A stretch of DNA of 64,000 nt from Bacillota bacterium (lineage in GTDB: Bacteria > Bacillota > SHA-98 > UBA4971): positions 124,001 to 188,000 of the forward strand of contig JANLFY010000005.1 of the NCBI GenBank assembly GCA_024653485.1. Reading direction: 5' to 3'. The position numbers and the translations under genes are program-made. Positions 5,376 through 52,860 of this stretch are shown here, piece by piece; position 1 is the first letter of the stretch, and the number at the start of each line of letters is the position of its first letter. The notes below the pieces were generated by a model, which saw nothing but the letters and a program-made list of their open reading frames with translations, had not been told where the DNA came from and ran no database searches.

Positions 5376-5678
5376 GACGCGCACCTCCCGCCGTTCCTCC
5401 ACGGTCTACAGGTATTATGGCCGTGCCAAAATGGGTGCATACTGCGGCGTTGGTGCCCCTGTTTCCCAGACGTTCCATCGCCTTACCGCGCAGCCAACCT
5501 CAAGGAAACCCTGCGAAAACCGCGCGCGGTTCCCTCGCGCTCAGGTCCGGTGGTTTCATGATCCTCTTAGCCCGTAGGAACGCAGGATGCTGCCGCAGAC
5601 GCAGGCACGACACTGTGTCGTTGGGAGGGACCTAGCTTGGGAGGGACCTAGCACAGGAGTCTGGCTGCTCGCGTTGGT
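5376..5678. other. Intergenic gap between sigma-54 activator and AAA+ gene
   Basis: No coding sequence is convincing here. It should hold the AAA-VWA promoter. A sigma-54 -24-like element, TTGGCACG on the minus strand (5422-5429), lacks the -12 GC and is not accepted. A perfect tandem duplication sits near the end of the activator gene (5621-5652). Confidence 0.5.
5621..5652. repeat. Tandem duplication of 16 bp
   Basis: TTGGGAGGGACCTAGC occurs twice with no gap (5621-5636 and 5637-5652), just after the stop of the sigma-54 activator gene. It could be a replication-slippage product or a pair of protein sites. It has no coding role. Confidence 0.85.
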
Positions 5679-43744: not shown

Positions 43745-44704
43745 CTAGAGACAGTCCCATCGCCCGCAGCGGGAGCCCCACCTTGCGATGACTTCGCGGC
43801 CCATCTTGATGTTCACTACCTCACAGAGGTTGGGACAGCCCCTACACTCGAAGCTGGAGGCTGAGTAGTCCATGTCGAGAGCCTGGAGGCCGCGGAAACG
43901 AGACGGCTCGTTCCGGCACTCCATTTCCTCCATCGCCAACAAAGCGGCCCCGATGGCGCCCATTACGTTGTAGTGTTCTGGCACGGCCACAGCTGTCCCG
44001 AGGGCCTTCTCGAAAGCCGCTCTCATCCCTGCGTTCGCGGCGACCCCGCCCTGGAACACGACAGGTGGGCGGATGTCCTTGCCCTTCCCCACGTTGCTGA
44101 GGTAATTGCGCACCAGGGCTTCGCAAAGGCCGGCGACGATGTCTTCTATCCTGTGGCCCATCTGCTGCTTGTGAATCATGTCCGACTCCGCGAACACAGC
44201 GCACCTTCCCGCTATCCTTACGGGTGTCTTTGACGTGAGAGCGAGCTCCCCGAACCTCTCGATGGGCACCCCGAGCCTCGCAGCCTGCTGGTCCAGGAAC
44301 GAGCCTGTGCCGGCCGCGCACACCGTGTTCATGGCGAAGTCGAGCACCATGCCGTCGCGCAAGATGATGATCTTGGAATCCTGCCCTCCGATCTCGATGA
44401 CCGTGCGCACCTCCGGGACGAACCGTGCGGAGGCGACCGCGTGCGCCGTTATCTCGTTCTTGACGCAATCAGCCCCCAGGATCACCGCCGCAAGCCTCCT
44501 GCCGCTCCCCGTGGTCCCGACACCCGCGACGTCCACACCCGAGAACGCCGTGGCCAGCATTCTCATTCCTCTCTGAATGACCGCGATGGGCTCTCCCCTG
44601 GTACGGAGGTACAGTTTCTCGATCACTTCACCCTCTTCGCTCAGGAGGACAAGGTTCGTGCTGACCGATCCGACGTCGACTCCCAGGTACGCCTTTCGTG
44701 CCAC
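43745..44704 (-). CDS. 2-hydroxyacyl-CoA dehydratase activase-like ATPase with Cys-rich tail
   Basis: A BadF/HgdC-type ATPase (ASKHA fold). The N-terminal phosphate loop is GVDVGSVSTNLVLL. Cys in NTVCAAGTGSF and AGRCAVFAESD match the two that hold the bridging [4Fe-4S] cluster in HgdC. GGVAANAG closes the adenosine site. Beyond the usual end is an extra Cys-rich tail with FECRGCPNLC and CGRWDC, as in the large fused activase-related proteins. The GTG at 44704 has GGAGG 11 bases upstream; a GTG at 44734 overlaps the preceding stop. It follows two CoA-dehydratase-like genes. Confidence 0.85.
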   Translation of the reverse strand: MARKAYLGVDVGSVSTNLVLLSEEGEVIEKLYLRTRGEPIAVIQRGMRMLATAFSGVDVAGVGTTGSGRRLAAVILGADCVKNEITAHAVASARFVPEVRTVIEIGGQDSKIIILRDGMVLDFAMNTVCAAGTGSFLDQQAARLGVPIERFGELALTSKTPVRIAGRCAVFAESDMIHKQQMGHRIEDIVAGLCEALVRNYLSNVGKGKDIRPPVVFQGGVAANAGMRAAFEKALGTAVAVPEHYNVMGAIGAALLAMEEMECRNEPSRFRGLQALDMDYSASSFECRGCPNLCEVVNIKMGREVIARWGSRCGRWDCL

Positions 44705-44730
44705 GAGCGAACTCACCTCCCCACCATGGC

Positions 44731-45828
44731 TCACATGGCGTCACGCCGGCTCCGCGATCTCTCGACGAGATCCACGAACGCCTCGAGGCGCGTGAGCACC
44801 CCGGCATCCGAGGAATGCTCGTCGAAGATCAGTGTCATCACTGGAATGCCCATGTCTCGAGAGACGGACGGGAGCACGTCCTGCGCAACTATCTCGGGCA
44901 TGCACGTGAACGGCGCGAGCTGGATTACCCCGTCGAACCTCCGGTGGGCGTACTCGACGGTGTGTCCCACGGTTTCGATTCCGTGTCCCCCCACGAAGTG
45001 ACAGAGGTACGGCTTCGCGAGGTCATACGGCCTCCTGCCCTTTCGCAGCCGGAGCAAGTCCTTGAAGACATGCTCTCTGACCCAATCGCCTATGTATATG
45101 GACCTCTCCACTAGAACCCCCATCTCTCCGAGCCTGCGCTCGACATCGAAGTTGACGAAGGGCTCGAGGACGACGTACACTTCGCCCACTACACCTATCC
45201 TCGGAGCGCTGTGAGCACCGCCTCCAGGTGCCTTCACGTCTAGGAGCGCCTCCCGCCCGTCTTCGAGAGCTCCTTTCACGCCAGCGATGCTCGACGCCTC
45301 ATCGACCAGCCTCAGCGCACGCTCGAGCGCGGCGCTCGCCTCACCACGCCGGCTCTCGAACGGCCGGACGCGCTGCGCCAGCTTCTCGAGTTCGTCCACC
45401 GCGGTCATCTTGGCCCAAGCCAGCCTTACGGCTCGCAGGTACCTGCCCACGGAGTTCCGCCCCACGAGCCGCCCGACCTGCTGCAGGACTCGTCGTAACC
45501 TTCCTTGGGGAGGGTCGATGATGACCATGTCGAACTCGTACCCAAGACCTTTCAGAATCTCCCTCTGCACCTCCCCGTACAAGCCGAACCTGCAAGGCCC
45601 CACGCCCCCCGCCATAGCGATGGTGTCGGCCCCGAGCTCCAGGGCTTCTATGTAGTTCCCGATGTTCACCTTGAGTGGCAGGCACGCGAATTCGGGCGAG
45701 TGGCGCGAGCCTATGGAGAGAGTGCGCTTGCTCGGCATGGGAGGCACCACCACCTCCACCCCGAGGTCTTCCAGCAGCGCTTTTACAGTGATGTACAAGT
45801 TGCCCATGTGCGCGAAGGTGACCTTCAT
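44731..45828 (-). CDS. 2-hydroxyacyl-CoA dehydratase-like subunit (DUF2229/HgdB-related)
   Basis: Resembles the D-component/DUF2229 parts of activase-related proteins. It contains FACLPLKVNIGNYIEALE, a GGVGPCRFGLYGE stretch, QLAPFTCMPEIVAQ, and LIFDEHSSDAGVLTRLEAF at the C-terminus, the same ending as its downstream partner family. Conserved Cys in these blocks could hold a [4Fe-4S] cluster. The start follows the stop of the upstream gene by only four bases with GGTGA ahead of it. Substrate unknown; split into separate genes here whereas in many bacteria these parts are one long chain. Confidence 0.75.
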   Translation of the reverse strand: MKVTFAHMGNLYITVKALLEDLGVEVVVPPMPSKRTLSIGSRHSPEFACLPLKVNIGNYIEALELGADTIAMAGGVGPCRFGLYGEVQREILKGLGYEFDMVIIDPPQGRLRRVLQQVGRLVGRNSVGRYLRAVRLAWAKMTAVDELEKLAQRVRPFESRRGEASAALERALRLVDEASSIAGVKGALEDGREALLDVKAPGGGAHSAPRIGVVGEVYVVLEPFVNFDVERRLGEMGVLVERSIYIGDWVREHVFKDLLRLRKGRRPYDLAKPYLCHFVGGHGIETVGHTVEYAHRRFDGVIQLAPFTCMPEIVAQDVLPSVSRDMGIPVMTLIFDEHSSDAGVLTRLEAFVDLVERSRSRRDAM

Positions 45829-45832
45829 GGAT

Positions 45833-46867
45833 TCACCGCTTCTTCCTGCGCGTGACCACGTCGAAGAACGCCTCCAGTCTCGTGAGGACTCCGGCTTCTC
45901 CCGTGTGCTCATCAACGGTGATGGTCGCAAATGGCACGTCCCTGTGCCGCGCCGCCTCCCGCTCCAGGATCTCACCGATGAGCGACTCCGGACCGCACGC
46001 GAACGCCCTCATGTGGAGGCACCCATGGACCGCTCCAGACCCCAGGAAGTAAAACCCCGCGCCGAGGAGCCTTCTGCCGAGCGTCCAGAACACTCTCCTC
46101 GGAAATCTCGAGGCCTCACTCTCGATCGTGGACGCCGGAACCATGTCCGACGTCACGACGATCGCCCCCATCTCTCGGAGTCTCCGAATGACACCCATGC
46201 TTACGAACGGGTCGTAGACGACGTAGGGGTGCCCGACGAGCCCGATCGCCACGCCATCCTGCCCTTTGCCCGGGTTCCGTGCCGCCCCTAGCGGGGAGGA
46301 CGCCGCGGCCACGCCCCCACGCGCAGACGCGTCGCGCGAGTTCGTCATGCCCATGAGAGCGAGCGCCTCGTCCGGAGTCATGCCGCTCTCGAGGTACCGC
46401 GTGTATGTCGCCAACGCAGCCTTCGCCTTGGTGTGCGCGGCCAAGATCCTGAGCGTGTTCCCGGTGAACACACGGCCCGCGGAGTACACGGCGCGAACGT
46501 ACCCCCTGGTGCTCTTGCTCAGATTCACGCACGAGTCGATGAGATTGGGGATGCCGGGGCAGTTGCAGCGCACCATATCGGGCAGGCCCATGAACTTCGG
46601 GCAAATGAAGGCCCGTCTCTCCACCGACACGAGCCTGGGGACGAACACGTAGTCGCAGTTGCCGGCGAGGGCGAGCACGTGCCCATGGAACACCTTGATG
46701 GGCAGGCAAGCTTCGTCCACCGCGACCCTCGCGCCGGCGTCCAGTACCGCTCTGGTGGTCTCACCGGAGGTAACGACGCTAGCCCCCAACGACTCGAAGA
46801 AGACCTTCCACATGGGGTAGTAATGGTAGTAGAGAAGGGCACGGGGGATCCCCACTACCTCTCCCAC
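45833..46867 (-). CDS. 2-hydroxyacyl-CoA dehydratase-like subunit (DUF2229-related, second)
   Basis: A relative of the preceding protein, with VGIPRALLYYHYYPMWKVFF at the start, EACLPIKVFHGH, RCNCPGIPNL, and FACGPESLIG, then VDEHTGEAGVLTRLEAFFD at the end. The Cys residues in these blocks are likely Fe-S ligands. It is the first gene of the three-gene operon ending with the activase. Location just downstream of spoVAEA does not by itself imply a spore role. Start GTG 46867, with AGGTGG nine bases upstream. Confidence 0.75.
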   Translation of the reverse strand: MGEVVGIPRALLYYHYYPMWKVFFESLGASVVTSGETTRAVLDAGARVAVDEACLPIKVFHGHVLALAGNCDYVFVPRLVSVERRAFICPKFMGLPDMVRCNCPGIPNLIDSCVNLSKSTRGYVRAVYSAGRVFTGNTLRILAAHTKAKAALATYTRYLESGMTPDEALALMGMTNSRDASARGGVAAASSPLGAARNPGKGQDGVAIGLVGHPYVVYDPFVSMGVIRRLREMGAIVVTSDMVPASTIESEASRFPRRVFWTLGRRLLGAGFYFLGSGAVHGCLHMRAFACGPESLIGEILEREAARHRDVPFATITVDEHTGEAGVLTRLEAFFDVVTRRKKR

Positions 46868-46891
46868 AGCGACATGCCACCTGCCTTCACC

Positions 46892-46945
46892 AGCCTTCTC
46901 TCCTTTGACAAATCACTGCGGTCTCCTTCAGAGGCCGAGAAGGCT
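46892..46945. repeat. Inverted repeat between spoVAEA and the CoA-dehydratase-like operon
   Basis: AGCCTTCTC (46892-46900) and GAGAAGGCT (46937-46945) are perfect 9-bp arms with a 36-base loop, filling the gap directly after the spoVAEA stop. No T-run follows on either strand. Confidence 0.5.
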
Positions 46946-47512
46946 TCATACCATCCCCTGGTGCTCGAGGATCTCTCGGATGGCTCTTGTCGTGATGAGG
47001 GCACCCTTCTCCACCGCATCCTGGGTATCCATCTTGCCGAGGTCGCCTATGCCTACGATCTTCGGGATCTGAAGGCGGGACAGGATCCCGACCGTGTCTC
47101 CTTCCAGCTGCTCGTGGCCGGGAGGTTCGGGCGCACCGGATTTCCCCACCGGCCCTGCGGTCACCTCCCCCTCTTTCGTGACTGATTCGTCCACCGTGAC
47201 CGACTTGTCGGCCTTTGTGTTGGACGCCACCGCGACTGCGCCCACTATCTCGATCCCCGCGTCGCGCGCGAAGTCCTCGAGCGCCTTTTCACCGGGACCC
47301 TTGCCCCTCTTCCCTCGGTCGTCGAACATGACTATCACCGGCTCCACTGGAGCCTGTTTCGCCATGGCTGCAAGCTCTCGGCCGCCTGCATGCGTGGGAG
47401 TCCCGGCGGACCTCTCGATGCAGTGCAAGCCGAGGTTGCGGGCAGCTTGTCGCACAGCTGCTTTCGCCCTGCCGTCTCCGTCAGTCACCACGATCACTTT
47501 CTTCCTCGCCAA
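46946..47512 (-). CDS. spoVAEA: Stage V sporulation protein AEA
   Basis: A soluble SpoVA protein, located on the spore inner membrane's outer face in Bacillus. It begins VIVVTDGDGRAKAAVRQAAR, contains VIVMFDDRGKRGKGPGEKAL, and ends KIVGIGDLGKMDTQDAVEKG, as in the family. The middle (about residues 105-135) is a low-complexity Thr/Lys/Glu insert. It is the last of the spoVA genes and follows spoVAEB by 15 bases. Confidence 0.92.
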   Translation of the reverse strand: MARKKVIVVTDGDGRAKAAVRQAARNLGLHCIERSAGTPTHAGGRELAAMAKQAPVEPVIVMFDDRGKRGKGPGEKALEDFARDAGIEIVGAVAVASNTKADKSVTVDESVTKEGEVTAGPVGKSGAPEPPGHEQLEGDTVGILSRLQIPKIVGIGDLGKMDTQDAVEKGALITTRAIREILEHQGMV

Positions 47513-47527
47513 TCAGCCATCACATCC

Positions 47528-47878
47528 TCACGTTTTCGGACTGGCGACGAGCGCAACCAGCGCGCCGAAGAACACCGCCACGGCTATGCCCATCCCTGTG
47601 TACTCGAACACTCCGGTGAAGAGCCCGATGAGCCCCGTCCTCTTAGCCTCCATCAAAGCCCCTCTAGCGATGGACGCGCCGAACCCGGAAACCGGAGTGA
47701 TGGCGCCCGCTCCCGCGAACTTGATCAACGGCTGGTACAGGTCGAGCCCCCCGGCTATCGCCCCCGCAACCGTCAAGATGACCAACATGTGACCGGGGGT
47801 GAGGTTCGTAAAATCCAGGATGAGCTGGCCTATCGCGCATATCGCGCCTCCCACGAGAAAAGCGTACAGGTAGGTCAC
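47528..47878 (-). CDS. spoVAE: Stage V sporulation protein AEB
   Basis: A 116-residue integral membrane SpoVA subunit, part of the channel that moves dipicolinic acid into the spore and out at germination. Three to four helices and the signature AGAGAITPVSGFGASIARG are visible; SpoVAC shares a similar GAGAAVPITGFANT block. GTG 47878 has GGAGG seven bases upstream. The open frame extends back to 47962 into spoVAD but is not expected to be translated there. Confidence 0.92.
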   Translation of the reverse strand: MTYLYAFLVGGAICAIGQLILDFTNLTPGHMLVILTVAGAIAGGLDLYQPLIKFAGAGAITPVSGFGASIARGALMEAKRTGLIGLFTGVFEYTGMGIAVAVFFGALVALVASPKT

Positions 47879-47928
47879 AGCTTCACCTCCGTTCTCGAAT
47901 CCTACGTGCCGCGGATCGACCCCCCTCT

Positions 47929-48939
47929 TCACGCCTCGATCACGACGGCATGCGCGACGCAAGGTATGGACTCACCCTGCTGACAACTGAGCGGGCTCAT
48001 GAGAGCCCCCGTCGCGATGAGGAGCACGTTCTTGTACGTGCCCCTCTGCATTTCCCTCAGGACGTGGCCGAACGTCACCACAGCCGAACACGCGCACCCG
48101 CTGCCTCCGGCCCCGACTTTCTGGGTCCTCGTGTCGAACAGCATGAGTCCGCAGTCCACATAGTTGCCCCCCAGCTCGACACCGTTATCCTTAACTAGCT
48201 CCTTGAGCATCTCGCTTCCAAATGACCCGAGATCGCCCGTGAGGATGAGATCGTAATCCCTAGGACTGAGACCGGTATCAGCCAGATGTGTCAGGAGCGT
48301 GTCAGCGGCAGCCGGCGCCATGGCGCCGCCCATGTTGTTCACGTCCTTCAGTCCGAGGTCCACCACCCTACCGACGGTCGCCCGGGTCACCTTCGGTCCG
48401 GTGCCGGCGGATGCAAGCAAGGCCGCTCCCGCGCCCGTCACGGTATACTGCGATGTCGTCTTGCGTTGGACGTTCAGCTCTATGGGGTACCTATACTGAC
48501 GTTCGGCCGTCTGGTAATGGCTGGAGCATGCGACCAGAACGTAGTCTGCAAACCCGCCGTCCAGCACCATTCCCGCGAGGGCCAGGCTCATCGCACACGT
48601 GGAACAGGCGCCGTAAAGGCCGAAGTACGGGATGGAGAGCTGCCTTGCGGAGTATCCTGCGGAGATTATCTGGTTGAGGAGGTCGCCGGCCATGTAGAAG
48701 TCCACCATGTTCCTGTCGATCTTCGCTCGTTCGATGGCTGTTTTCGCGGCCTGCTCCAAGATCTTTGTCTCACTCTTCTCGGGAGTCTTCTCGCCGTACG
48801 TGTGGTCCGGCAGGACCACGTCGAAATCCGAGGCCAGCGGCCCCTTGCCCTCCACAGGACCAACGACCGTCCCGGTTCCCACGATGACGGGAGGGTTTGC
48901 GAAGCCAACGGTGCTTTTCCCGAGCTTCTTCACCGCCAC
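47929..48939 (-). CDS. spoVAD: Stage V sporulation protein AD
   Basis: Peripheral SpoVA protein with a thiolase/KAS-III-like fold that binds dipicolinic acid in Bacillus. It has VIVGTGTVVGPVEGKGPLA, YGACSTCAMSLALAGMV (where thiolases carry the nucleophile Cys), GDLGSFGSEMLK, and GGSGCACSAVVTFGHVL. The length, 336, is standard. GTG 48939 has GGGGGG about 11 bases upstream. It lies 20 bases after spoVAC. Confidence 0.95.
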   Translation of the reverse strand: MAVKKLGKSTVGFANPPVIVGTGTVVGPVEGKGPLASDFDVVLPDHTYGEKTPEKSETKILEQAAKTAIERAKIDRNMVDFYMAGDLLNQIISAGYSARQLSIPYFGLYGACSTCAMSLALAGMVLDGGFADYVLVACSSHYQTAERQYRYPIELNVQRKTTSQYTVTGAGAALLASAGTGPKVTRATVGRVVDLGLKDVNNMGGAMAPAAADTLLTHLADTGLSPRDYDLILTGDLGSFGSEMLKELVKDNGVELGGNYVDCGLMLFDTRTQKVGAGGSGCACSAVVTFGHVLREMQRGTYKNVLLIATGALMSPLSCQQGESIPCVAHAVVIEA

Positions 48940-48959
48940 GGCTCAAGGCTTCCCCCCAA

Positions 48960-49466
48960 TTACGACGTGGCCACGAACTTGATGAGCGCAACCGCGACTC
49001 CAGCAAGCGTGGCGTAGACAATGACTGGACCGGCTATTATGAACATTTTCGCGCCCATGCCGAGAACCCACCCCTCGCGTTTGAAATCGATGGCCGCGGC
49101 GACTATGGTGTTGGCAAACCCGGTAATTGGCACCGCGGCCCCCGCTCCCGCGAACTCACCAAGCTCATCGTAGACGCCGAGCCCTGTAGCAACCACTCCC
49201 ACCAGGATCATCACCGCGAGCGTGGGAGCGGACGCTGAATCGAGGTCAAGGCCCCGGGACATGAAGAACGTCAAGACCACCTGTCCGATAACGGCTATAG
49301 CGCCGCCCACCACGAAAGCCACCAGCAAGTTCCGCAGGTAGCGCGGCCTCGGCTTTCTCCTCTGCACGAGCTCTTTGTACGCAAGCTGCCGCCTCTTCTC
49401 CTCCTGCGATGCTTGGGTCATGTGGGGCAGGTTCGCCACCTGCTTCTTTGCTTTCTGGGATGTCAA
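48960..49466 (-). CDS. spoVAC: Stage V sporulation protein AC
   Basis: Integral membrane SpoVA subunit; in Bacillus it forms a mechanosensitive channel in the spore inner membrane. A charged N-terminus of 45 residues is followed by about four helices with EFAGAGAAVPITGFANTIVA. TTG 49466 has GGGGAGA eight bases upstream. No spoVAA, spoVAB or spoVAF is present next to it, the reduced set found in many clostridia. Confidence 0.94.
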   Translation of the reverse strand: MTSQKAKKQVANLPHMTQASQEEKRRQLAYKELVQRRKPRPRYLRNLLVAFVVGGAIAVIGQVVLTFFMSRGLDLDSASAPTLAVMILVGVVATGLGVYDELGEFAGAGAAVPITGFANTIVAAAIDFKREGWVLGMGAKMFIIAGPVIVYATLAGVAVALIKFVATS

Positions 49467-49492
49467 TGCGCATCTCTCCCCAGGGCTGTCCG

Positions 49493-49699
49493 TCAGGTAC
49501 CGTCCACCGCGAAGGCAACGTGGACATCCGCCTTGTACCTGACTATCTTGCCGTTGTCCACTGAGGCGGTCATGTTGGTCACCTCAACCCCGGTGATATT
49601 CCTGAGGGTCTGAGATGCGGCACGAACGGCCTGGTTCACGGCATCTTCCCAGCTCGTTGAGGACTCGCCCATCAGCTCCACTATCTTGACCACTGTCAC
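49493..49699 (-). CDS. Dodecin
   Basis: A 68-residue flavin-binding dodecin, which forms hollow dodecamers that store or buffer flavins. It reads VVKIVELMGESSTSWEDAV, then ASQTLRNITGVEVTNM and VRYKADVHVAFAV; the Trp stacks against flavin in the family. GTG 49699 has AAGGAGG nine bases upstream. Its stop is only 26 bases before spoVAC, and a sigma-G-like promoter precedes it, so it is probably made in the forespore with the SpoVA proteins. Confidence 0.92.
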   Translation of the reverse strand: MTVVKIVELMGESSTSWEDAVNQAVRAASQTLRNITGVEVTNMTASVDNGKIVRYKADVHVAFAVDGT

Positions 49700-49724
49700 G
49701 TGAAACAACCTCCTTTCTCTCGGT

Positions 49725-49755
49725 TAATTATGCTCACGGCTCATGGCTTTAATTC
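49725..49755 (-). promoter_or_regulatory. Sigma-G-like promoter of the dodecin-spoVA operon
   Basis: On the minus strand GAATT (49751-49755), an 18-base spacer and CATAATTA (49725-49732), near the sigma-G consensus (GHATR and CATnnTA). It is about 25 bases before GTG 49699. Confidence 0.55.
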
Positions 49756-49821
49756 CCCGGTGGCGTGTTGCGTTGGGCCGGAAGGAAGGCCGCGAAAGTC
49801 GCCAGCTCAAGCGATCGAGAA

Positions 49822-49857
49822 CGCCCCGCCGTGTGTCAGAGACCACAGTACGGGGCG
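49822..49857 (-). terminator. Hairpin after sigF
   Basis: CGCCCCG (49822-49828) and CGGGGCG (49851-49857), with CGTGTG pairing partly inside, form an imperfect stem 50 bases after the sigF stop. The minus-strand tail is TTCTCG. Confidence 0.5.
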
Positions 49858-49906
49858 CTGCTTCGCCTTCCACGACTATTGCCGCGCGGTCGGTTTCGGC
49901 CAACGT

Positions 49907-50668
49907 CTAGACCAGCTCCTGCCTGAGGCGGCGCAAAGCCTTCTGCTCGATCTTCGAGACTTGGGGCTGGGATATGCCGAGCGCCCGAGCGACCTCCACT
50001 TGCGTCAACTCGCGGAAGAAGCGCAGCTGCAGAACGGCTCGCTCCGAAGCGCTAAGCCGTGTCATGGCTTGTTGGAGCGCGATGGACTCGACGCTCTTGT
50101 CGGCGAAAGACTCGCCCACCGCGAGCTGCTCCTCAAAGGGCGCGGGACACTCGCCGGAAGACGGCTCCGAGAGGGACGCGACGGGTTGGAATGCCTCTTG
50201 GGTCTCAACCACCTCCTCGCGCGCGAGACCCGTTGCGGAAGCCACTTCCTCAACTGTGGGTTCTCTGCCGCAAGTGGCCCGTAGCTGCTCTCTCGCCATC
50301 TCGACTTTGACCGCACGCTCCCGCAGAGTCCTCCCGATTTTCATCCCCCCCGCGCTCCTAAGGTGCCGCCTTATTTCCCCTAGGATCACGGGAACGGCGT
50401 ACGTGGAGAACCGAGTGCCCACAGAAGCGTCGAACCTGTCAGCGGCCCGCAAGAGGCCCACGCACCCCACCTGGAACAGGTCTTCGGAATCGTCAGTTCT
50501 CTGCAAGAAGCGGTTCACTATGCTCATCACGAGGCGCAAGTTCCTCGAGACCAGCTCCTCGCGGGCTTTATCGTCTCCAGCGCGGATTCGCGCGGCGAGC
50601 TCGCGAACCTCCTCGTCGGAGAGAACGGGTGTCTGGGGAAACCGAACGCGCTCAAGACCGTCGTTCAT
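49907..50668 (-). CDS. sigF: RNA polymerase sigma-F factor
   Basis: The first forespore-specific sigma factor. Regions 2 to 4 are all visible: NRLVMSIVNRF-like VSRNLRLVMSIVNRF, DLFQVGCVGLLRAADRFD, TFSTYAVPVILGEIRR-type RFSTYAVPVILGEIRRHLR, and the region-4 helix-turn-helix LTQVEVARALGISQPQVSKIEQ. It is the third gene of spoIIAA-spoIIAB-sigF; its ATG overlaps the end of spoIIAB by 17 bases. It is held inactive by SpoIIAB until SpoIIAA is dephosphorylated. Confidence 0.96.
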   Translation of the reverse strand: MNDGLERVRFPQTPVLSDEEVRELAARIRAGDDKAREELVSRNLRLVMSIVNRFLQRTDDSEDLFQVGCVGLLRAADRFDASVGTRFSTYAVPVILGEIRRHLRSAGGMKIGRTLRERAVKVEMAREQLRATCGREPTVEEVASATGLAREEVVETQEAFQPVASLSEPSSGECPAPFEEQLAVGESFADKSVESIALQQAMTRLSASERAVLQLRFFRELTQVEVARALGISQPQVSKIEQKALRRLRQELV

Positions 50669-51104
50669 TCTCCTCGCTCCCTGCCATGCGTGGAGCCTTT
50701 GTCATGGTGACCCGCACCCCGGCCCCAGGCCTGGACGAGACGTCGAGGCTGTCTGCGAGAGCTTCCATTATGGTGAAACCCATCCCCATGCGATCCGGAG
50801 ACGTGGTGAACGCTGGACGGAGGGCTTGCTCTATATCTGCTATCCCACGGCCCGTATCTTCCACCGTTATGGTGAGGACGTTGCCCTCGATGACCGCCCG
50901 AACCCTCACGAGTCCGCCGGGAGTGTCGTACCCGTGGAGCACTACGTTGGACACAGCTTCGGAGACTATGAGCTTGATGTCGTCTATCTCTTCCATGGTG
51001 AAAGATGCGATCTGCGACGCGAAACAGGCAACCGCCACCCTGGCGAATTCCACGTTCTGAGCGGTTGCCGGAAACTCAAGGGTTACATGGTTAGTCACGC
51101 TCAT
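50652..51104 (-). CDS. spoIIAB: Anti-sigma-F factor SpoIIAB
   Basis: A GHKL-type kinase that binds sigma-F and phosphorylates SpoIIAA. The N box is IVSEAVSNVVLHGY, the G1 box VEDTGRGI, and the G2-like GMGFTIMEALAD. ATG 51104 matches the family; the open frame upstream to 51152 is over the spoIIAA end. The four-base gap after spoIIAA implies co-translation. Confidence 0.96.
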   Translation of the reverse strand: MSVTNHVTLEFPATAQNVEFARVAVACFASQIASFTMEEIDDIKLIVSEAVSNVVLHGYDTPGGLVRVRAVIEGNVLTITVEDTGRGIADIEQALRPAFTTSPDRMGMGFTIMEALADSLDVSSRPGAGVRVTMTKAPRMAGSEENERRS

Positions 51105-51108
51105 CCCC

Positions 51109-51456
51109 CTACCCCCCCGACGCTCGCATCCAGGCCTCGTCCTCTGTTTCACACACAGGGATGATGTTCACGAGGCCTGAGAGCTCAAAGACCTTGCGAA
51201 CCTGCGGGGACGGCGACACCGCCACCACGCGTCCTCCGTGCGCGCGCAGCCTCTTGTACCTCCCGAGGATGGCTCCCAAGCCCGAACTGTCGATGAACGT
51301 GACGTCGCGCAGCATCAAGAGCATGTTGGTGACTTCAGGCCTCGCGCCGAGCTCCTCCTCTACCTTCGCGCGGAAGTCGGGAGCGGTGCCTAGATCCAGC
51401 TCTCCCGAAAGGCGCACAACGAGAACGTCTCCAATAGCCCTGGTTTCGATTCTCAT
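51109..51456 (-). CDS. spoIIAA: Anti-sigma-F factor antagonist SpoIIAA
   Basis: A STAS-domain protein of 115 residues. It holds VVRLSGELDLGTAPDF and FIDSSGLGAILGRYK; the first Ser of the DSSG block is the phosphorylation site for SpoIIAB. When unphosphorylated it frees sigma-F. ATG 51456 has GGAGG about seven bases upstream, and a sigma-H-type promoter lies 51-77 bases before it. Confidence 0.96.
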   Translation of the reverse strand: MRIETRAIGDVLVVRLSGELDLGTAPDFRAKVEEELGARPEVTNMLLMLRDVTFIDSSGLGAILGRYKRLRAHGGRVVAVSPSPQVRKVFELSGLVNIIPVCETEDEAWMRASGG

Positions 51457-51506
51457 GCGAAGCCCTCCTACCGTGTCATGCCGGTCGGGCGCTCCCGACG
51501 GTTTGT

Positions 51507-51533
51507 ATTCTACGGCCCTCCTATGAGTCCTCC
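51507..51533 (-). promoter_or_regulatory. Sigma-H promoter of the spoIIA operon
   Basis: On the minus strand GGAGGACTC (51525-51533), an 11-base spacer and GTAGAAT (51507-51513). This matches the sigma-H consensus RnAGGAwWW / RnnGAAT, with only the AT-rich positions poor. In Bacillus the spoIIA operon is sigma-H dependent. Confidence 0.65.
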
Positions 51534-51545
51534 CGGGGACGACGA

Positions 51546-51569
51546 AAATGCCCCGTCGCCGGGGCATTT
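51546..51569 (-). terminator. Terminator between dacF and spoIIAA
   Basis: AAATGCCCCG (51546-51555) pairs with CGGGGCATTT (51560-51569) around a four-base loop, with a T-run on the minus strand. It lies 80 bases after dacF and ends its transcript before the spoIIA promoter. Confidence 0.75.
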
Positions 51570-51648: not shown

Positions 51649-52860
51649 TCAGTCCTGTCCGACCCGGAAGAGGGTCCGCAAGAGGTTTCGGGTGGCACGC
51701 AGCACGACCCTCAACACGTTCCCCCTTTTCACCTCCTCTGCCGCCACAAGGTCAACTCGCGCAACCTCCGTTCCATCTTCCAGTAGGGCGATGAGATCCC
51801 CGATCTTCTGCCCTTTCTGCACCGGGGCGGTGATCCTTTCGGGAAGGACCATCTCGCTCCTCACCTTGCCCTCCTCGCCCCGGCGCACTACGGCCACGAG
51901 ATGGTCCCTGGCGACGACGTCCACCTTCTCAATGACGCCGCGGGCCACGTCCAGTTGCGCCATGACCTGCCCTTTGGACGCTATCTCCACGCCGGAGTAG
52001 TACCTGAAACCGAAGTCGAGGAGGGAGGAAGCCTCCTTGAACCGTAGCTGCGAGTCGGCCACGTTCAACACGACTGCTATCAGCCTAAGGCCTCCTCTCT
52101 TGGCCGTGGCGGCGAGGCAGTACCCCGCCGCCTCTGTGAATCCGGTCTTGAGTCCGTCCGCTCCCTCGTATGACTTGACGAGCCTGTTTGTGTTGACGAG
52201 GATGTTCTTACCGCCCCGCACATAGTCGATCCATATGGTGAACCACTCGTGGACCTTGGGATAACGAAGAAGCGCTCGAGACATGATGGCGATGTCCCTA
52301 GCAGTCGTGTAGTGGTCCTGGTGAGGGAGGCCATGGCAGTTCGCAAAGTGGGTTCCTGTCATCCCGAGCTCCCGCGCTCGCTCGTTCATCATGTCTACGA
52401 AGGCCTCTTCGCTCCCGGCGATGTGCTCTGCCACGGCGACGCTGGCATCATTGGCCGAGACGACTGCGATGGCTTTCATGAGGTCTGAGAGAGGCATCTC
52501 CTCCCCCACCTCGAGCCAAATCTGCGACCCTCCCATCTCCATGGCGCGCTCACTCGTGGGCACCATGTCATCAAGGCTTGCCTTTCCCTGCTCGATCGCC
52601 TCCATGGCCAGCAGCATGGTCATGATCTTCGTGATGCTGGCTGGAGCCATACGCTTGTCGGGATCCTTCTCGAACAGCACCCGGCCAGAGGAGGCTTCCA
52701 TGAGAATCGCGGAACCCGCGGTGATCGGCACGCTTGGGGCAGGACCGGGCTGCTTCTCTTGCGCTGACGCGCCGGCTGGGGCGCCGGCGTTCCACATGGA
52801 CACCGCGGTGATCAGGAAGACTGCGAGAGCGACGCCCGCCGCTACCCTCCGAGCATTCAT
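51649..52860 (-). CDS. dacF: D-alanyl-D-alanine carboxypeptidase DacF
   Basis: A penicillin-binding protein that trims pentapeptides in spore peptidoglycan. A signal peptide (about residues 1-33) precedes the catalytic domain with SITK (nucleophile Ser in MAPASITKIMT), SAND, and KTGF. The C-terminal domain has the usual beta-rich region and ends with an amphipathic helix (LRATRNLLRTLF) that may hold it on the membrane. The order dacF-spoIIAA-spoIIAB-sigF matches Bacillus, where dacF is forespore-expressed. Confidence 0.94.
   Translation of the reverse strand: MNARRVAAGVALAVFLITAVSMWNAGAPAGASAQEKQPGPAPSVPITAGSAILMEASSGRVLFEKDPDKRMAPASITKIMTMLLAMEAIEQGKASLDDMVPTSERAMEMGGSQIWLEVGEEMPLSDLMKAIAVVSANDASVAVAEHIAGSEEAFVDMMNERARELGMTGTHFANCHGLPHQDHYTTARDIAIMSRALLRYPKVHEWFTIWIDYVRGGKNILVNTNRLVKSYEGADGLKTGFTEAAGYCLAATAKRGGLRLIAVVLNVADSQLRFKEASSLLDFGFRYYSGVEIASKGQVMAQLDVARGVIEKVDVVARDHLVAVVRRGEEGKVRSEMVLPERITAPVQKGQKIGDLIALLEDGTEVARVDLVAAEEVKRGNVLRVVLRATRNLLRTLFRVGQD

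Follow-up and report, generated by a model that had tools for sequence, protein, structure and literature searches.

A dodecin gene in the spoVA operon

We analyzed a 64,000-nucleotide stretch of the genome of a Bacillota bacterium (GTDB lineage SHA-98; UBA4971; contig JANLFY010000005.1, positions 124,001 to 188,000), hereafter the window, in which a gene for a small dodecin lies at the junction of two sets of sporulation genes. Read along the minus strand from 52860 down to 46946, the gene order is dacF-like, spoIIAA, spoIIAB, sigF-like, dodecin, spoVAC, spoVAD, spoVAEb and spoVAEa (Table 1). The dodecin gene thus sits between the spoIIAA-spoIIAB-sigF-like genes (49907-51567) and spoVAC, 207 nt past the end of the sigF-like gene. 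Its GTG start codon is 9 nt downstream of AAAGGAGG, and 26 bases separate its stop codon from the TTG start of spoVAC, exactly as the original prediction had stated. This is the sole dodecin match found in a search of the 3.0 Mb genome.

The spoVA genes encode the channel through which calcium dipicolinate is loaded into the spore. In Bacillus subtilis their order is spoVAA-AB-AC-AD-AEb-AEa-AF (PMC11841064). The window operon shares spoVAC, AD, AEb and AEa with it in the same order, including the operon core spoVAC-spoVAD-spoVAEb. It differs in having an extra dodecin gene before spoVAC and in that no match to SpoVAA (PF12164) was detected in the window genome; B. subtilis, for its part, has no dodecin match.

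Table 1. Features of the dodecin-spoVA region, in window coordinates, with the basis of each assignment
Feature	Position	Strand	Basis
Putative forespore-type promoter element GAATT-N18-CATAATT (sigma-G/F-like)	49726..49755	-	Single site in genome at <=1 mismatch; conserved in family
Ribosome-binding site AAAGGAGG	49709..49716	-	Sequence
Dodecin without flavin-binding Trp/Gln, 68 residues, GTG start at 49699	49493..49699	-	PF07311 91.4 bits; model pLDDT 96.1, dodecin fold; residues
spoVAC	48960..49466	-	TIGR02838 164.2 bits, cut-off 164
spoVAD	47929..48939	-	PF07451 484 bits; TIGR02845 482 bits
spoVAEb (GTG start inferred)	47528..47878	-	TIGR02839 134.8 bits, cut-off 131.1
spoVAEa	46946..47512	-	PF14097 214.8 bits; NF052647 185.3 bits, under its cut-off of 200
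sigF-like sporulation sigma factor	49907..50668	-	SigF/SigG family 246.6 bits, under cut-off 311; SigF named from place behind spoIIAA-AB
spoIIAB	50652..51152	-	TIGR01925 162.5 bits, cut-off 135
spoIIAA (true start probably further in)	51109..51567	-	STAS domain PF01740; named from position
dacF-like D-Ala-D-Ala carboxypeptidase	51649..52860	-	PF00768 260 bits; named from position

Straight after spoVAEa, at 43745-46867 on the minus strand, are genes for a DUF2229 protein, for a protein of 414 residues that no NCBIfam model matched and for an acyl-CoA dehydratase activase (TIGR00241, 190.6 bits).

Linkage of dodecin and spoVA across the phylum

To place the locus in context we used a main sample of 249 genomes, taken evenly across the phylum. 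Dodecin is carried by 144 of these and SpoVAD was found above cut-off in 209. Both proteins are encoded in 142 genomes, dodecin alone in 2, SpoVAD alone in 67 and neither in 38. Dodecin is therefore present in 142/209 SpoVAD-positive genomes vs 2/40 SpoVAD-negative genomes, with three weak SpoVAD matches scored as negative (Fisher p 1.9e-14, relatedness ignored). In one of the two SpoVAD-negative carriers (G126), the dodecin gene adjoins a spoVAC gene that is cut by the contig end. In the other (G195), the dodecin (L134) is of the calcium type described below and has an unrelated neighborhood.

We classed all 144 dodecin genomes by reading their dodecin loci, counting neighbors within 1.5 kb. 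In 112 of them spoVAC/spoVAD lies downstream of dodecin on the same strand, so the linkage that the original prediction had proposed to look for in other genomes does exist, and its refuting outcome, a lack of linkage in relatives, did not arise. Among these 112 genomes, 98 also have sigF upstream and 14 have spoVAC/AD only, some perhaps because the locus is at a contig end. Another 11 have sigF upstream of dodecin and no spoVAC/AD within this distance (4 of the 11 have spoVAEa), and in 7 dodecin is beside spoVAF- or spoVS/dipeptidase-like genes, which were named by eye and not by profile. A separate comparison of dodecin and SpoVAD positions gave 86 of 111 dodecin genomes linked among the matches listed; the other 33 were settled later from the locus reading.

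Closer to the window, 44 of 61 genomes (the window genome and 60 relatives) carry dodecin, and in 40 of the 44 spoVAD follows it on the same strand at a distance of 508-1113 bp. We also examined 80 named loci out of 151 that matched a single peptide pattern, a sample that favors this dodecin type. Here spoVAC/AD is downstream in 69/79 loci whose downstream flank extends 1.2 kb or more, sigF is upstream in 58/74 whose upstream flank is as long, and the median gap between the dodecin and spoVAC profile matches is about 50 bp. Named carriers include Carboxydocella, Fervidicola, Thermosediminibacter, Thermovorax and Tepidanaerobacter, and also Moorella, in which dodecin is unlinked.

SpoVAA was found in 11/249 genomes. 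In 4 of these, dodecin follows spoVAA on the same strand at a distance of 271-819 bp and is thus inside the operon. We considered dodecin as a stand-in for SpoVAA/AB and rejected this, as the two are not mutually exclusive. Taking the samples together, we conclude with near certainty that in many spore-forming Bacillota the spoVA operon includes dodecin as a conserved member.

Some loci have an alternative cluster, comprising a spoVS-like gene (L090, L114, L120), a membrane dipeptidase-like gene and dodecin, again with names given by eye. What comes after dodecin is a spoVAF-like gene (L084, L090, L140/L208, and L120 with a small gene between) or spoVAC-AD-AEb (L114). Four genomes (G005, G135, G159 and G224) have two dodecin matches each, although the G135 pair may be one locus split by assembly.

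A forespore-type promoter motif upstream of dodecin

The GAATT-N18 element that had been noted ahead of dodecin is present as GAATT-N18-CATAATT. At up to 1 mismatch it is the sole match in the genome, and the reversed control pattern gave 0. Sites were scored against assumed consensus strings for the sigma factors. Against the sigma-G consensus the window site scores 10/12, a score reached by 29% of shuffled 150-bp upstream regions, and the motif alone is thus weak evidence. In the window's family, however, GAATTAAA-N15-CATAATT is unchanged in 12/12 distinct upstream regions, at -55 to -57. (A 13th family locus carrying the element, L011, duplicates L010 and was left out of the 12.) Identity among the 12 regions is 100% in the -35 and -10 elements, 53% in the spacer and 31% in the 40 nt upstream. 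We consider the window element credible as a promoter because it is conserved in the family while its flanks diverge. The exact element was carried by 13 of the 167 loci scanned, all in the family, and by none outside it.

More generally, forespore-type sites are enriched upstream of dodecin. Among 117 non-redundant upstream regions, sigma-G-like sites (at least 11/12) occur in 32 vs 3.3% of shuffles, sigma-F-like sites (at least 14/15) in 30 vs 1.9%, and one or the other in 55 vs 4.6%. The reverse-strand control gave sigma-G-like sites in 7/117 and sigma-F-like sites in 3/117 regions. No enrichment upstream of dodecin was detected for the sigma-A, sigma-E or sigma-K consensus; for sigma-A (at least 11/12) the count was 1/117 vs 0.2% of shuffles, which we did not regard as enrichment. 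Around the operon (46800-50000), a sigma-70 scan found 3 sigma-70-like sites (0.7 in shuffles), none of them ahead of the dodecin start codon on the same strand, and a terminator scan found one terminator-like site, on the opposite strand (2.2 in shuffles). In agreement with the proposed sigma-G-like promoter, dodecin in the window and its relatives stands behind a putative forespore-type (sigma-F/G) promoter motif.

A looser sigma-G-like pattern had 3 matches in the genome vs 4 for the reversed control, and no regulon could be drawn from it. Two individual sigma-G-like sites, from searches in which the match number was no higher than in the control, precede genes that we named by eye. One (L224, G000:C5:44092-44121, minus strand) precedes a ClpP-like gene resembling tepA and the other (window 5413-5442, minus strand) an AAA-type ATPase gene.

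These results also bear on whether dodecin could be a passenger with a vegetative role, held beside sigF and spoVA by common ancestry. The gene order is widely shared, as such a history would predict. The strength of the association with SpoVAD, the relocation of dodecin to positions beside other sporulation genes and the enrichment of forespore-type promoters make this explanation highly improbable.

A dodecin without the flavin site

The protein is clearly a dodecin. The Pfam PF07311 model gives 91.4 bits (cut-off 22.5) for the frame with the slightly longer start (49493-49708). The predicted monomer has the fold beta-alpha-beta-beta (strand 2-13, helix 17-29, strands 35-48 and 51-66; predicted local distance difference test score, pLDDT, 96.1). 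The model superimposes on the Thermus thermophilus dodecin with a template modeling score of about 0.93, and dodecin entries head both structure-match lists. In length and fold it resembles the flavin dodecins of H. halophila (2vxa), T. thermophilus (2cz8/2ux9) and S. coelicolor (6r1e), with VIA Z about 12 and a root-mean-square deviation of 0.8-1.3 over 66-68 residues.

In flavin dodecins two flavins sit between symmetry-related tryptophans (PMC7414021). We compared the flavin-site positions in 152 genomes, i.e., the 144 dodecin genomes and 8 relatives from the 61-genome set, leaving out the second dodecin of G005. At the position of the stacking tryptophan (W38 in T. thermophilus; the title of PDB entry 2vyx names a W38F mutant), Gly occurs in 150 genomes, the window included, Glu in 1, Val in 1 and Trp in none. 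The Gln of the flavin site, which we take to lie beside the flavin, is replaced by Lys or Arg in 152/152. Position 17, on the other hand, is Trp in 148 and Phe in 4. The invariant residues in 60 sequences include K5, E8, S13, W17, G37, E39, N42, T44 and K56. Thus, the window type is distinguished from flavin dodecins by Gly for the stacking Trp, Lys/Arg for Gln, Trp at position 17 and its spoVA/sigF neighborhood.

The window protein also falls under the cut-offs of both NCBIfam dodecin equivalogs (NF043052, 56 of 75 bits; NF041389, 52.6 of 100 bits), and between 44000 and 54000 nothing in Rfam matched at gathering thresholds, hence no flavin mononucleotide (FMN) riboswitch. Judged by its residues, the window protein is very probably a non-flavin dodecin and not a flavin store, and probably has another ligand. 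The suggestion in the original prediction that the spore uses dodecin to store flavin or for protection from light does have the family and fold in its favor. With the stacking Trp absent in all 152 genomes, the Gln position changed throughout, scores below both equivalog cut-offs and no FMN riboswitch match, we consider it quite improbable.

Relationship to other dodecins lacking the flavin tryptophan

When PDB was searched with the window protein by phmmer, the second hit was 3onr, the calcium dodecin Rv0379/SecE2 of Mycobacterium tuberculosis. Like the window protein, Rv0379 carries Trp17 (in TSWE), lacks the flavin Trp and has a basic residue in place of the Gln. It differs in having 28-29% identity, Val instead of Gly at the Trp position and a host that is not a spore former. 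The comparison with the calcium dodecin is based on PDB titles and alignments. By sequence, the spore dodecins belong to a Trp17 type that includes the mycobacterial calcium dodecin.

The same type occurs on plasmids of haloarchaea (Haladaptatus, Natronococcus, Halobaculum). These proteins also combine Trp17 with the absence of the flavin Trp, and they are 51-60% identical to the dodecin of L002, a locus from a window relative. These carriers differ in that they do not form spores, and the annotated neighbors are stress, CBS or unrelated genes. No SpoVA gene is among the annotated neighbors of plasmid Trp17 dodecins of haloarchaea, Allomeiothermus or Microvirga. We therefore rejected the idea of a protein type exclusive to spores. 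A Haladaptatus plasmid dodecin (L227, 2501-2710) that is 60% identical to a spore-type dodecin adjoins two universal stress protein genes.

Such neighbors raise the alternative that the spore protein is a general dormancy or stress protein of the core. It would be an abundant and stable cage that holds some other metabolite or protects the core, and it would use the spoVA promoter only for forespore timing. Besides the haloarchaeal stress genes, the linkage of dodecin to several sporulation genes (sigF, spoVS-like, spoVAF-like), and not to spoVA alone, fits this explanation. However, the 112/144 genomes with spoVAC/AD downstream show a more specific association than timing alone would need, and we consider it unlikely.

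The dodecin type itself is known, and the plasmid relatives are already annotated as "dodecin family protein." The gene table of a 2012 survey of sporulation genes includes spoVAC, spoVAD and spoVAEB, and the survey's main text does not contain the word "dodecin" (PMC3533761). We found no paper linking dodecin and spores in the open-licence literature, as judged from titles and the starts of abstracts. The place of dodecin in the SpoVA system thus appears to be unreported within the open-licence literature searched.

Proposed function

We propose that the SpoVA system of the forespore includes dodecin as a conserved accessory, whose probable target is Ca2+, calcium dipicolinate (Ca-DPA) or the channel, and give this reading a probability of about 0.4. 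From the motif and gene order, sigma-G (or sigma-F) would transcribe dodecin-spoVAC-spoVAD-spoVAEb-spoVAEa in the forespore. As in the rest of the family, the 68-residue chains would assemble into a hollow dodecamer, here in the forespore cytosol. The cage may sit at the channel's inner mouth, bind the cargo of SpoVA or its counter-ion there (Ca-DPA or Ca2+) and then buffer or nucleate this ligand in the core or help to hold the channel closed.

Because dipicolinate is made in the mother cell, dodecin is more likely to help receive it or gate the channel than to take part in its synthesis. Ca2+ or Ca-DPA is our guess at the ligand, by analogy with the calcium dodecin and given the place of the gene; it is somewhat less likely than not, and the dipicolinate-linked role raised in the original prediction is likewise only a possibility. 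A more specific version, which we advance as a speculation, is that many spore-forming Bacillota lineages have a dedicated Ca2+- or Ca-DPA-binding dodecin cage that receives cargo in the core or gates the channel. The former flavin pocket, in which Gly replaces Trp and Lys replaces Gln, would then take a small aromatic di-acid such as dipicolinate or its Ca2+ complex.

Alternatively, the dodecamer may have no small-molecule ligand and act on the channel directly: bound to SpoVAD or SpoVAC as a scaffold or plug, it would control how the channel is assembled or gated. The dodecin gene is directly before spoVAC with a short gap, and the invariant residues could form a binding surface. In a 2025 review SpoVAD is presented as a cytoplasmic plug, with mention of its earlier placement on the outer surface (PMC11841064). 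The 11 genomes that keep dodecin after sigF with spoVAC/AD elsewhere, and the related haloarchaeal dodecins without SpoVA neighbors where annotated, argue against such a partnership, and we consider it somewhat unlikely.

Several observations weigh against a SpoVA accessory acting on Ca2+, Ca-DPA or the channel. In 14/144 genomes, from five families, dodecin has none of the above sporulation neighbors within 1.5 kb on its strand. Eight of these genomes are in the family that includes Moorella; one of the eight (G173, L154) has spoVAC/AD 3.3 kb downstream and was still counted as unlinked. Three others of the eight (G028, G073 and G144) have sigF within 1.2 kb on the opposite strand. Moreover, 67/209 SpoVAD-positive genomes lack dodecin, and B. 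subtilis, one of the control genomes, has SpoVAD and no dodecin match. Dodecin is therefore not essential for SpoVA function in general.

As to the ligand, the nearest solved structures by profile and fold are flavin dodecins (2vxa heads the phmmer and profile lists, 2ux9 one fold list, and 2cz8 and 2vxa the other), and 3onr is fifth by profile and last of the dodecin entries by fold. A weakly supported tree (about 68 columns; 104 distinct sequences, from which any shorter than 56 residues were dropped) joins 3onr to L134 from the SpoVAD-negative genome G195 (0.947) and not to spore-type sequences. It also places six plasmid dodecins of haloarchaea within the spore-type grouping (node support 0.0). 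The plasmid Trp17 dodecins without annotated SpoVA neighbors further indicate that the type did not evolve only for spores.

Significance

The uptake, holding and release of Ca-DPA are central to the heat resistance and germination of spores. What is known of Ca-DPA comes mostly from Bacillus and some clostridia, and the lack of a dodecin in B. subtilis would explain why a SpoVA-linked dodecin went unnoticed. As a small soluble protein conserved next to the channel genes in many families, dodecin offers a convenient biochemical entry point to this system. A link to the spore would give the non-flavin dodecin type a physiological setting.

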